Source: Coriobacteriales bacterium (GTDB taxonomy: Bacteria > Actinomycetota > Coriobacteriia > Coriobacteriales > UMGS124). From it: 61,709 nucleotides of DNA. Made by a program: the position numbers and the translations under genes. Below, piece by piece: positions 32,107 to 43,491 of this stretch; the first letter of the stretch is position 1, and each line of letters starts with the position of its first letter. A model generated the notes under the pieces. It searched no databases. It was not told the DNA's origin and saw nothing but the letters and a program-made list of their open reading frames with translations. The DNA lies in contig JAFWFL010000073.1 of the NCBI GenBank assembly GCA_017515595.1, positions 1 to 61,709 of the forward strand, written 5' to 3'.

Positions 32107-33687
32107 TCAGGGTTGTCTTACGAGGTCAATGAGTTCTTGGCGGGTATGGATGTTGAGTTTGCGGTAGATGTTCTTGAGGTGGGTTTGGACGGTGCCAATT
32201 GAGATGCCGAGTTCCTCGGCAATGCGCTTTTGGCTGTTGCCAGCTGCGAGCAGGGCGGCAACCTCAGATTCTTTTTCGGTCAGGAAATAGGTGGCTGAGA
32301 TACTGTCGAGATTATGCTGAAGGGGGTCTGTCTGCGGTAGAGAACTTTTATCTGAGGCAGACGTGTCCGGAATGCCCGGTACTGACGGAGTTGAATCAGA
32401 AGAACCGGTTTTCTCTGCAAAGGCGGGAGCTGTAAACGCAAAGACCGAGGCTGCCATCATTACCAATGCCATGCCGGCAGCAAGCGCGGGGGCGAGGTTT
32501 GCCGCGTCGATTCCCGCCAAACTCACAAGTGCCGGTACAATCAGGTATCCGAGCAGAGAAGACAGTATGTCGCATCCTAAGAAGCAGCACGAGAATACAA
32601 AGATGGGATTCACATGGGTTTGGTGTACTTCTCCCACAAGGAGCAGCCACAGAAGGACGCTCAAACAGGTGCGCCCCATCATCATAATGGCTGATCCCAA
32701 GCTGTCATGTCCGCTTCCAAAAAGCATCATGAGCAGGATGCCTGCAAACAGAACTACCATGGTAAGCGGCCAGATCATACTGAGTTTGCGCTTATGCGCT
32801 ACGGGAGTCGCCATAAAACCGAGAAAGATTCCCGAGTAAACAATAGAGAGAATGTCCTGTGTCAAGGGAGGGCTGGCGAGTGCGCTGTCAACGCCGCCAT
32901 TAACAACACCGCGAAGCACACTGCTTGCGAGCAGGGAGAGCATAAGAACAATGATGGCGCGGTCAGAGTGCCAGGTAAATGAAGTTGGCGTTTCTACAGA
33001 GGTGGCAGCGGTATTCTCTGCAGCGATCTTGCCCGAGCCGGCAATCTCATTGAGTATCACAAGAATTCCCAATGAAATCACGGGTAAAAATGCTGTTATG
33101 ATTTCAGGAACAGGCCTGGGCAGCCATCCTATCTGCTGGATCAAAAAGCTCAGAATAAACCCGCCAACAGACACTATAGCCGCTCGTGAGAGAGACAGCT
33201 TACAAACATAAGACGCCCAAAGAAGAGTAAGAGAGACAAAGACTGCCGGGAAGAGCAGGGCATCAGCGACAGCGGCAATTGTCGCGACCACACCCTCTAG
33301 CTGTAAGGTGCATGAGATTACTTTAAGCAGGGCTTGGGCAGAAAATATGGCTATAAGCGCATTCCGGTTGTTTAGGGTAATGTCGCGATTATGTTTGCAA
33401 CGGTACACAACAAGTACCACAAGCGCCGTAAGACAAGCCAGGTAAAGGCAGAAAAGAGGTGTCATTCCCGTGAGACTCGCGTCATGGCCTCCCAGCACGT
33501 GGAAGAGGACATTGCGGCGTAAAAGCGGCCAAAAGAGCGCCATACCAATGATCGCAAGAACATCGTTCCGCGCAAGTCCGCGGATCCCAGCAGCGGCAGC
33601 GCCTGTCTTCTCGGCAGGCTGCTCTTCTATAAAACTCTTCTCTGTACCGGCATTTTGAGCCGGTACGCTGACTATGTCCCGAGCCAT
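32107..33687 (-). CDS. Membrane-bound LuxR-family regulator
   Basis: A 526-residue protein with about twelve hydrophobic segments (residues ~38-420), a Ser/Thr/Pro-rich linker (~425-450) and a C-terminal LuxR HTH (FLTEKESEVAALLAAGNSQK, then GTVQTHLKNIYRKLNIHT). I choose the ATG at 33687 because AAGGAG lies 9 bp upstream; the longer frame from 33726 lacks a site. Unlike the other three regulators of this type in the window, it is not next to a reductase. The nearest reductases are the array ending at 29715, separated by the ATPase and REP insertions. It may still be their regulator. Confidence 0.86.
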   Translation of the reverse strand: MARDIVSVPAQNAGTEKSFIEEQPAEKTGAAAAGIRGLARNDVLAIIGMALFWPLLRRNVLFHVLGGHDASLTGMTPLFCLYLACLTALVVLVVYRCKHNRDITLNNRNALIAIFSAQALLKVISCTLQLEGVVATIAAVADALLFPAVFVSLTLLWASYVCKLSLSRAAIVSVGGFILSFLIQQIGWLPRPVPEIITAFLPVISLGILVILNEIAGSGKIAAENTAATSVETPTSFTWHSDRAIIVLMLSLLASSVLRGVVNGGVDSALASPPLTQDILSIVYSGIFLGFMATPVAHKRKLSMIWPLTMVVLFAGILLMMLFGSGHDSLGSAIMMMGRTCLSVLLWLLLVGEVHQTHVNPIFVFSCCFLGCDILSSLLGYLIVPALVSLAGIDAANLAPALAAGMALVMMAASVFAFTAPAFAEKTGSSDSTPSVPGIPDTSASDKSSLPQTDPLQHNLDSISATYFLTEKESEVAALLAAGNSQKRIAEELGISIGTVQTHLKNIYRKLNIHTRQELIDLVRQP

Positions 33688-33778
33688 GAGACAAGTCTCC
33701 TTAGGCATAAAACAGCAATCCCTCATTGCGTATATTATATGCCTAAGTTTTATAAAACAGCGAGAAAAAATAAGGTTA

Positions 33779-34459
33779 TTAGGCTCCGTTGACGTTGCGG
33801 ATGTATTCCTCTTTGGGAATCATTGGCGCTTCGAGCTCAGCAACTGTTTGTGCCGAGAGGGAGAGCGTGGCAGCATATTCTTCGCCGGCTGCCTTAAAGC
33901 GTGCAAGGAGAGGGTCAGCTACAACTGCGGCTGCCGGTATGTTGAGCAGGGGAGTCTCGGGCACACAGAGCATATCGGGGTTACAGAAGCAGATGTTGCA
34001 CATAGTCCTGATACTGTCAAAGTTGCCATCCCAGTTAGGGAAGCCGCAGCCACAGATAACAAGCGTATGGATTTTAGAGAAATCAGCCAACGCCTCATGG
34101 CGGACCGCTCCGTTTGCTTCCTGCACCATGCGCATTTTGATGAGGGGAATAGTGCGGTCGAGCACCGCTTTTAGATGAGAGGGCATACCGTAGCAATAAA
34201 GCGGGAAGCTCCAGATGATAACGTCAGAGCTCTGGTAAAGATCAAGAATCTCGTTTTGGTCATCAGCGATCACGCAGTGTCCGTCCGCGCGCTCCCAGCA
34301 GCCAAAACATCCCCTGCAAGGCGCGATGTTCTTCTCGATAACATGTACCACGTGCACTTCATGCTCCTGGTTTTTGTTCATGCCCCGCAAAAAAGCATCT
34401 GTCAGACGGAACGTATCGCTCTTCTTTTTGGGACTTCCGTTTAATACGAGTATTTTCAT
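33779..34459 (-). CDS. NADPH-dependent FMN reductase / flavodoxin-like oxidoreductase
   Basis: A 226-residue flavodoxin-fold protein. The N-terminal MKILVLNGSPKKKSDT is the FMN phosphate-binding loop. APCRGCFGCWERADGHCVI (residues ~48-66) holds four Cys as in iron-sulfur flavoprotein-like oxidoreductases, and SFPLYCYGMPSHLKAVLDR is the second FMN loop. A role as an electron carrier or quinone/aromatic reductase is possible. The ATG at 34459 follows GAGGAG; nine codons upstream in frame are unlikely to be translated. It stands alone. Confidence 0.82.
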   Translation of the reverse strand: MKILVLNGSPKKKSDTFRLTDAFLRGMNKNQEHEVHVVHVIEKNIAPCRGCFGCWERADGHCVIADDQNEILDLYQSSDVIIWSFPLYCYGMPSHLKAVLDRTIPLIKMRMVQEANGAVRHEALADFSKIHTLVICGCGFPNWDGNFDSIRTMCNICFCNPDMLCVPETPLLNIPAAAVVADPLLARFKAAGEEYAATLSLSAQTVAELEAPMIPKEEYIRNVNGA

Positions 34460-34691
34460 GATCAATCTCCTCATCCATATAAGCACGCTGTTTCTTTACT
34501 GCTCAACAATACTATGAAGGCAAGTAAACCGCAACCTACGCAAGGTAGAGTGCATGAGTTTCTGGCGAATACCTTAAGGGCAGTATGAGCTGGGATCCGG
34601 CATAAATCGCAGGAGTGGTTAGTAACCCCCTTACGGCAAAAAGCGCTGTGTTTTGATGTAATAAGAATCCCAAAGAATTCGATGAACCAAC

Positions 34692-42807: not shown

Positions 42808-43392
42808 TTAAAGTTTCTTTTTGAACAGGCCGTGGTGGTTGCAATATGCGTAGAGATACTTTACCCGGTTGATTTTGAATCTTGCCTCGGCGCTGCCTTC
42901 AGGGTAGAGTTTTACAAATTGAATCCCCTGGTCAGATACTGCAGCTAAGAACGAGATGTAGTGATCTTTGGTCATGGGATGGTTGACGGTTACGTAGTAT
43001 TCGTCTTCGACAATCTCTATCTGCAACTCGTGGGATAAATCTTCCTCTTCCGGCTCGAGCGGTGGCAGGCTTATTCCACAGCAGCAAATAACGGCTTCAC
43101 CGGTTGCCTGTATCACATTGCCGCAAACCGGACATACATAAAAACGAGCTTTCTTGATATTGGATGATCTGTTTCTGTTTGTGACGGTATCGCCCGAGAA
43201 CAGCTCTATAACAGAGATGTCGAGTGCCTTTGCGAGCGGCTCTAAAAGAGTAATATCCGGCAGTCCCTGGCCGGTCTCCCACTTGCTTACCGCTTTGCTG
43301 CTCACAAAGATCTTCTCGGCAAGCTCTTCTTGCGTAAGCTTTTTATTTTCGCGAAGCTTGCGAATCACAGCTCCGGTAACATACCTATCCAT
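42808..43392 (-). CDS. XRE-type HTH regulator fused to a desulfoferrodoxin-like domain
   Basis: A 194-residue protein in three parts. The HTH_3 domain (residues 5-60) includes LTQEELAEKIFVSSKAVSKW. A desulforedoxin-like centre spans 85-106, with Cys87-x2-Cys90 and Cys104-Cys105. A superoxide-reductase-like domain spans 118-190. The five SOR iron ligands have candidates at the right spacing: His121, His138 (NHPM), His144 (DHY), Cys184 and His187 (YCNHHG). It probably senses superoxide or redox state and regulates transcription directly, or detoxifies as well. Start ATG follows GAGGAGG. It converges on the peroxidase operon, so it may control that region. Confidence 0.83.
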   Translation of the reverse strand: MDRYVTGAVIRKLRENKKLTQEELAEKIFVSSKAVSKWETGQGLPDITLLEPLAKALDISVIELFSGDTVTNRNRSSNIKKARFYVCPVCGNVIQATGEAVICCCGISLPPLEPEEEDLSHELQIEIVEDEYYVTVNHPMTKDHYISFLAAVSDQGIQFVKLYPEGSAEARFKINRVKYLYAYCNHHGLFKKKL

Positions 43393-43491
43393 TGATTGTA
43401 CCTCCTCATGCTTTAAACTTGTATTTTAAGCCTATCATATGCATGCTGAAGCTACAACCTACGCATCGTGGATGATGTTTTTCACTTTGAA

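Follow-up and report, generated by a model that had tools for sequence, protein, structure and literature searches.

Introduction

Fusions of a helix-turn-helix (HTH) domain to a superoxide reductase (SOR) have been catalogued before. SORGOdb (2011; PMC3116461) defined a class HTH-Dx-SOR, to which 19 of its 325 catalogued proteins belong, and the available passages of that paper give the class no operator, target or function. The sequence-only reading of the locus described here had noted that such fusions appear in SOR surveys, which this class bears out. The open literature, considered through titles and abstract openings and with most subscription journals lying outside it, offered no other study of an HTH-SOR fusion and no function for one. 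Two characterised proteins were considered as relatives and rejected: TrtA of T. denticola, which has 104 amino acids, is XRE-like up to residue 80, resembles no known functional protein in the rest and shows no SOR part (PMC12724145), and OseR of C. difficile, which is Spx-like and likewise shows no SOR part (PMC11481553).

The present locus lies in a stretch of 61,709 nucleotides from a Coriobacteriales bacterium (contig JAFWFL010000073.1), referred to as the window, within a genome assembly of 3.3 Mb, 134 contigs and 97.7% completeness. What is new here, and was not proposed in the earlier reading, is a pair of probable regulatory targets suggested by sequence comparison, namely the protein's own promoter and an FMN-reductase gene about 9 kb away.

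Domain architecture and fold of the regulator

42808-43392, minus strand: HTH-Dx-SOR regulator, 194 amino acids; HTH at about residues 1-68, Dx-like Cys4 module at about 82-110, SOR fold up to 194

The proposal of an XRE-type HTH joined to a desulforedoxin centre and a SOR-like domain is borne out by Pfam, phmmer and the superposition of an AlphaFold2 model. Pfam matched HTH_3 at residues 10-64 (E 4e-14) and Desulfoferrodox (PF01880) at residues 135-192 (E 9.2e-8), both above the cut-off, while the Dx domain (PF06397) was hinted at below it (E 0.22); the top PDB match by phmmer was desulfoferrodoxin 2ji2 (E 7.9e-11). The model, built from 97 sequences (pLDDT 89.7, pTM 0.68), superposes with residues 4-68 on the P22 c2 repressor 3jxb (Z 13.3), which gives the N-terminus the XRE HTH fold, and with residues 78-193 on its best fold match, the Treponema pallidum SOR 1y07 (Z 15.1, 2.0 Å over 114 residues). 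Residues 81-194 superpose on 1dfx with a Z of 13.8. The protein scores below the cut-off of the NCBIfam equivalog dfx_rbo (52.7 against 146.9 bits).

The residues that had been picked out as ligands, Cys87, Cys90, Cys104 and Cys105 of the Dx-like module and His121, His138, His144, Cys184 and His187 of the SOR domain, are all correctly numbered in the translation, where three cysteines follow one another at 103-105. The claim that their spacings match those of the known iron ligands holds for H138-x5-H144 and C184-x2-H187, which have the canonical form; the Dx motif, by contrast, is CX2CX13CC, and H121 precedes H138 by 17 residues, as against 21 in a second, canonical SOR with Glu-Lys-His which is encoded on another contig of the same genome.

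Metal ligands and catalytic residues among relatives

Ligands were counted in a first set of 97 relatives, the window protein included, and in a second set enlarged by 19 members to 116. All 116 proteins, and hence all 97 of the first set, keep C87, C90, C104, H138, H144 and C184, and the metal-site pattern is therefore not due to chance. The remaining ligands vary: C105 is kept in 109 of 116 and is His in the other 7 (92 of 97 in the first set, with 5 His), H121 is kept in 108 and absent in 8 (96 of 97), and H187 is kept in 100 and absent in 16 (85 of 97, replaced by Asp in 10 and by Asn and Gln in one each). In all 97 relatives of the first set the distances H121-H138, H138-H144, H144-C184 and C184-H187 are identical and the Dx motif is CX2CX13CC, and 84 of the 97 hold the complete set of five SOR ligands (H121, H138, H144, H187 and C184). 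K142, two residues ahead of H144, is Lys in 112 of 116 and Arg in 4.

The members in which Cys105 has become His (CC to CH) are L128, L132, L133, L138, L142, L267 and L268, and L132, L133, L142 and L268 also have Asp for His187; an alternative metal set is possible in these proteins.

Canonical SORs served as the yardstick for what has been lost. In a profile alignment with 12 of them (hhalign probability 99.7, E 3.5e-27), H121 pairs with the canonical His and the regulator shows a three-residue deletion ahead of it, the Glu being among the deleted residues. The catalytic Glu-Lys had been described as replaced by Leu-Ser; the pair is lost, as claimed, but by deletion of three residues including the Glu, with Ser120 standing in the place of the Lys. 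This Lys is missing in 95 of the 97 relatives, the exceptions being L066, with the only Glu-Lys pair, and L014, with Lys alone. Centre II was present in 42 of 42 canonical SOR loci, at least 41 of which also have a Lys immediately preceding the first His (L058 having Lys or Arg), whereas the Glu immediately preceding that Lys occurs in just 15 of the 42, which weakens the argument from the Glu and leaves that from the Lys in place. Superoxide reduction has in addition been reported for a neelaredoxin without the Glu ligand, according to a title in the SORGOdb reference list (PMC3116461), and, given both observations, loss of Glu-Lys alone is no proof of lost activity.

Conservation of the metal ligands together with loss of the catalytic Lys favours sensing, though loss of activity is not proven thereby, and the best reading of these comparisons is that selection for catalysis has ceased to act on the SOR domain. 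The suggestion in the sequence-only reading that sensing is likelier than catalysis gains support from the members that have lost His121 or His187.

A working superoxide reductase which sets its own level through the HTH, with the enzyme as the product that matters, is an unlikely alternative. The five intact ligands in 84 of 97 relatives are those of an enzyme, and K142 could perhaps replace the lost Lys48. In 20 of 46 genomes, which are of unstated completeness, a threshold of E <= 0.001 brought up no further PF01880 match, and HTH-Dx-SOR could thus be the sole SOR there; an operator found almost solely at the regulator's own gene (see below) would suit such an enzyme equally well. Against this, Lys precedes the first His in 2 of 97 members, compared with 41 or more of the 42 canonical loci, His121 or His187 is lost in members which keep both HTH and operator, and a canonical SOR coexists with the regulator in the window's genome and in 26 of the 46 (matches over 50 bits).

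Somewhat less probable again is that the metal sites are structural, holding for example zinc, in a simple autoregulator blind to redox state. Zinc sites tolerate the exchange of Cys for His, as seen at Cys105 in 7 of 116 members, and without His121 the residues H138, H144, C184 and H187 would form a tetrahedral Cys/His site. A structural zinc, however, needs no set of five ligands such as is kept in 84 of 97 relatives, and the target associated with the regulator is a predicted redox flavoprotein.

A predicted operator ahead of the regulator gene

43455-43472, minus strand: operator TCCACGATGCGTAGGTTG, 5' of the regulator, with 0 mismatches to the family consensus
43429-43434, minus strand: -10 box TAGGCT, extended TGATAGGCT, 20 nt past the operator

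The operator includes the palindrome CCACG-ATG-CGTAG at 43459-43471, and the -35 of the regulator promoter, TTGTAG, overlaps its 3' end. Upstream regions throughout the family share the block TCYACGnnnCGTAGGTnG, and 94 of 96 family promoters from Bacillota, Spirochaetota and Actinomycetota have a palindrome, CTACGnnnCGTAGGT, at a fixed distance ahead of their -10 box. These 94 are the regions in which the block was recovered with up to three mismatches allowed: 40 match it exactly, 38 have one mismatch, 12 have two and 4 have three. Of shuffled regions 1.5% contained it, the consensus being derived from the same promoters in which it is counted and the counts ignoring relatedness. It was not found at this threshold upstream of L014 and L016, and L140, where the contig ends, was excluded from the count.

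When 90 promoters were aligned, the columns of the -10 box fell at one distance (first T in 74, A in 84 and last T in 86), with a nearly information-free stretch between block and box; it is on these column counts that the -10 claim rests, and not on the 75 of 94 boxes picked up by a scan 12-20 nt past the site. The -35 is frequently poor, with a mean of 3.1 of 6 matches, which leaves activation open. As the -35 begins with the final TnG of the block, the palindrome would be centred near -43.

The site is closely tied to HTH-Dx-SOR genes. Across 97 loci (1.28 Mb), 79 of the 80 sites with at most one mismatch precede such genes and the 80th precedes the FMN-reductase gene of the window, while the reversed pattern gave a single site. 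A matrix trained without the window scored the regulator operator at 27.3, the site before the FMN-reductase gene at 24.7 and the best unrelated site of the window at 8.8. Among 3.6 million other positions, 107 matches reached 24.7; 99 of these are identical to an operator used for training, and the other 8 comprise six at newly fetched HTH-Dx-SOR genes, one at a truncated copy (L196) and one orphan (L194). A relaxed exact pattern was found at 32 places in 30 of 46 whole genomes and in none of the other 16, the reversed pattern occurring at 14 places. HTH-Dx-SOR genes lie at 31 of the 32, the exception being L217 (G351). Thirty of the places were taken as loci, and a simple pattern detected a family ORF behind 28 of them; at L226 a PF01880 match lies 468 bp behind, and the two places outside the 30, G346:C11 and G355:C136, are both followed closely by a PF01880 match.

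Two isolated sites deserve description. At L196 (G036:C1:1480716-1480950) operator and promoter are intact and the gene is cut down to about 71 amino acids of the SOR C-terminus, with no HTH, in what is a decayed copy. At L194 (G030:C34:93446-93463) an exact operator is followed at the family spacing by a -10-like CATAAT, with no HTH-Dx-SOR gene behind it; it lies upstream of a long ORF and is an orphan or fossil site.

With no more than one mismatch allowed, the genome of the window has just two sites, at 43455-43472 and 34532-34549, some 9 kb apart and both in the window. At up to two mismatches there are 17 (15 of them at two), as against 78 for the reversed pattern, and no wider regulon is thus claimed. 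Among 60 relatives the pattern with up to one mismatch was no commoner than the reversed control, exact matches alone being informative.

Operator type follows HTH type

The right half of the operator changes with the HTH encoded behind it. Ten of the 116 proteins carry KWERG after the recognition helix, and all ten have sites of the CTACGGAGCGTTnnTTG type (CGTTnnTTG) at up to two mismatches. The 102 others counted comprise 93 with the CGTAGGTnG type, 2 (L084 and L278) nearer to CGTT and 7 with none or a tie; the association between HTH type and operator type gave a Fisher p of 2e-12, with relatedness ignored. Right half-sites accompanying the other HTH types are thus CGTTnnTTG or CGTGGATT, the latter in the operons of three KWECG proteins (3 of 3; L330, L331 and L332), where CTACGG(A/G)GCGTGGATT stands ahead of the first gene. 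A fourth protein, L284, is cut short and was grouped with the KWECG proteins by hand.

In L330, L331 and L332 (G367, G643 and G417) the KWECG gene closes a conserved four-gene operon, which encodes in order a small protein, a DUF6530 protein (PF20140), an AAA_5 ATPase that also matches VWA below the threshold, and the regulator, as assigned by Pfam on L332, where the small first protein had no Pfam match.

In 11 genomes the KWERG-type site had 11 exact matches, of which 10 lie at HTH-Dx-SOR or FMN-reductase genes (assigned by position) and one at G367:C12; at one mismatch it was about as common in these genomes as the controls.

That operator type tracks HTH type is the main argument that the HTH-Dx-SOR protein itself would bind the site. 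The palindrome was found by position alone and might belong to another regulator, with HTH-Dx-SOR acting elsewhere; we consider this improbable, as it runs counter both to a right half-site that changes with the HTH type encoded behind it and to the placing of 31 of 32 exact sites at HTH-Dx-SOR genes in the 46 genomes. The G036 copy, which retains the site without an HTH, is what recent decay predicts.

An FMN reductase as predicted second target

33779-34459, minus strand: flavodoxin-fold FMN reductase (PF02525/PF03358), 226 amino acids, with a CX2CX2CX7C motif; predicted second target
34532-34549, minus strand: second operator TCTACCTTGCGTAGGTTG, with 1 mismatch, 72 bp ahead of the FMN-reductase start
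34506-34511, minus strand: -10-like TATTGT, 20 nt past the second operator, at the family spacing

Among solved proteins the FMN reductase matches a single one, 7d38 'Cd1', and that weakly (E 1.5e-4). At E <= 1e-10, 7 homologs, the window's included, were found in 118 loci (1.36 Mb). Five of them adjoin the regulator on the same strand, in L083 (76% identity), L268, L279, L281 and, more weakly, L122 (E 9e-12), and share with the window protein a CX2CX2CX6-7C motif; the sixth homolog outside the window, in L150, lies 1.1 kb from the regulator. In L268 the operator precedes the FMN-reductase gene and the regulator starts 5 bp past its stop, and the two genes of L083 are separated by about 227 bp, which may contain a short ORF.

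A total of 13 homologs was found in 80 regulator-bearing genomes (G036 with the truncated copy only). Four lie in the operon of the regulator (G337, G496, G367 and G609, corresponding to loci L083, L281, L279 and L268), and two, in the KWERG genomes G583 and G533, are on other contigs with CTACGGAGCGTT(T/C)(G/A)TTG upstream. The remaining 7 in these 80 genomes showed neither linkage to the regulator nor an operator. On the sequence comparisons, the link between regulator and FMN reductase is thus real but not universal.

In the window, a LuxR-type (GerE) protein is encoded on the same strand at 32107-33726 (minus), starting about 50 bp past the FMN-reductase gene; transcription from the second operator may include both genes.

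Distribution and genomic neighbourhood

Seventeen orthologs, the window's included, came from a search of 60 genomes (own genome counted), and a scan of named genomes supplied 80 loci of at least 573 relatives. These 80 loci represent Bacillota, Spirochaetota and, with one Eggerthellaceae record, Actinomycetota, and many of them come from ruminant or horse gut records. In an even draw from the phylum of Faecalibacterium longum, 19 of 299 genomes held an HTH-Dx-SOR protein (E <= 1e-40). Two copies, each with its own operator, occur in G346 (L213 and L098) and in G355 (L234 and L114). Further fusions were also seen, to a TipAS antibiotic-recognition domain in L014:123-1124 (G039; E 3.5e-33), where no operator was recognised, and to a GNAT acetyltransferase domain in L123:8001-9143 (Faecalibacterium longum).

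Apart from the FMN reductase, little conserved gene neighbourhood was found in 97 loci; the commonest neighbour cluster, which we take for an ABC transporter, occurs in 9 of the 97 at scattered positions. In the window the regulator is adjoined by a convergent OhrR-GPx-radical-SAM operon (OhrR by NF052638, E 1.4e-44, below the cut-off). The earlier remark that the gene converges on a peroxide-defence operon is right as to position, but the functional link it implied has to be given up: no OhrR or GPx homolog was found in the other 96 loci (E <= 1e-10), radical-SAM homologs occur in two of them (L079, 61%, and L141, 23% identity), and no operator site lies in or ahead of the operon. For all its proximity and convergent orientation, it is very improbable that this operon is what the protein regulates. 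The closest relatives among the matches listed are from Bacillota (77% identity, against 60% within the window's own order), and in a quick tree the window protein falls among Bacillota rows with weak support, so that this spot looks like a landing site and the operon like a chance neighbour.

Proposed mode of action

With a fair degree of confidence, and from sequence comparison, we propose that the protein is an autoregulated, metal-dependent one-component redox regulator of itself and a flavoprotein, and not a SOR enzyme. Comparison supports its architecture, fold, ligands and operator, the match of operator to HTH type and the association with FMN reductase; direct binding, dimerisation, the metal, the signal, the sign of regulation and the chemistry of the flavoprotein are what we infer. 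Through its XRE domain a dimer would bind CTACGnnnCGTAGG, a site that lies immediately ahead of the -35 of the regulator gene and extends into it; in the window's genome it would bind at the FMN-reductase gene in the same manner. The Cys4 (Dx) and His/Cys (SOR) sites would hold a metal, most simply iron, which superoxide, O2 or a related oxidant would oxidise or remove, thereby altering DNA binding and with it the supply of regulator and flavoprotein. Most likely the protein would be a repressor relieved by the oxidant, resulting in more of a flavoprotein which could consume O2 or peroxide. Repression is the sign that we favour, with reasonable confidence, on account of the overlap between operator and -35; an activator, too, could act from a site centred near -43.

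More tentatively, and with rather more doubt than belief, these proteins may constitute a widespread family of sensors of superoxide, O2 or a related oxidant, in which a retired SOR serves as the sensor, operator types (CTACGnnn with CGTAGG, CGTTnn or CGTGGA) evolve with the HTH, and regulons are small, consisting of the regulator itself and an iron-sulfur-type flavoprotein or, in one branch, the operon of DUF6530 and the AAA ATPase.

A named operator and a second target make the regulatory role of the HTH-Dx-SOR class testable. If the SOR domain senses, a retired antioxidant enzyme would here have been turned into a redox sensor, and direct sensing of superoxide or oxygen by the bacteria that carry it would become a testable question.

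Comparison with known systems

With the HTH-Dx-SOR class as described in the available passages of SORGOdb (PMC3116461) the regulator shares the N-terminal HTH before a Dx-SOR module and a centre II of HX5H and CX2H. The architecture is thus already known, whereas the Dx spacing, CX2CX13CC here against CX2CX15CC in SORGOdb, falls outside its strict pattern. With 2Fe-SOR/desulfoferrodoxin (2ji1 of D. baarsii and 1dfx of D. desulfuricans) it has in common the fold, the five iron ligands of centre II and the Cys4 of centre I; it differs in the added HTH, the lost Glu-Lys loop, a shorter stretch from the first to the second His and, two positions ahead of the third His, a Lys that varies hardly at all (to Arg where it does).

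As proposed, the regulator would resemble PerR, SoxR and OhrR, which are metal- or thiol-based one-component redox regulators: it would control its own gene, and redox chemistry at such a site would alter its DNA binding. The folds of these three are unrelated to HTH-Dx-SOR, which differs in combining a SOR sensor domain with an XRE-type HTH. The predicted target resembles the iron-sulfur flavoprotein Isf, a type characterised by bound [4Fe-4S] and FMN, in its flavodoxin/FMN_red fold and compact Cys motif; Isf of methanogens and clostridia has such a compact motif, and proteins of the Isf type consume O2 or peroxide.
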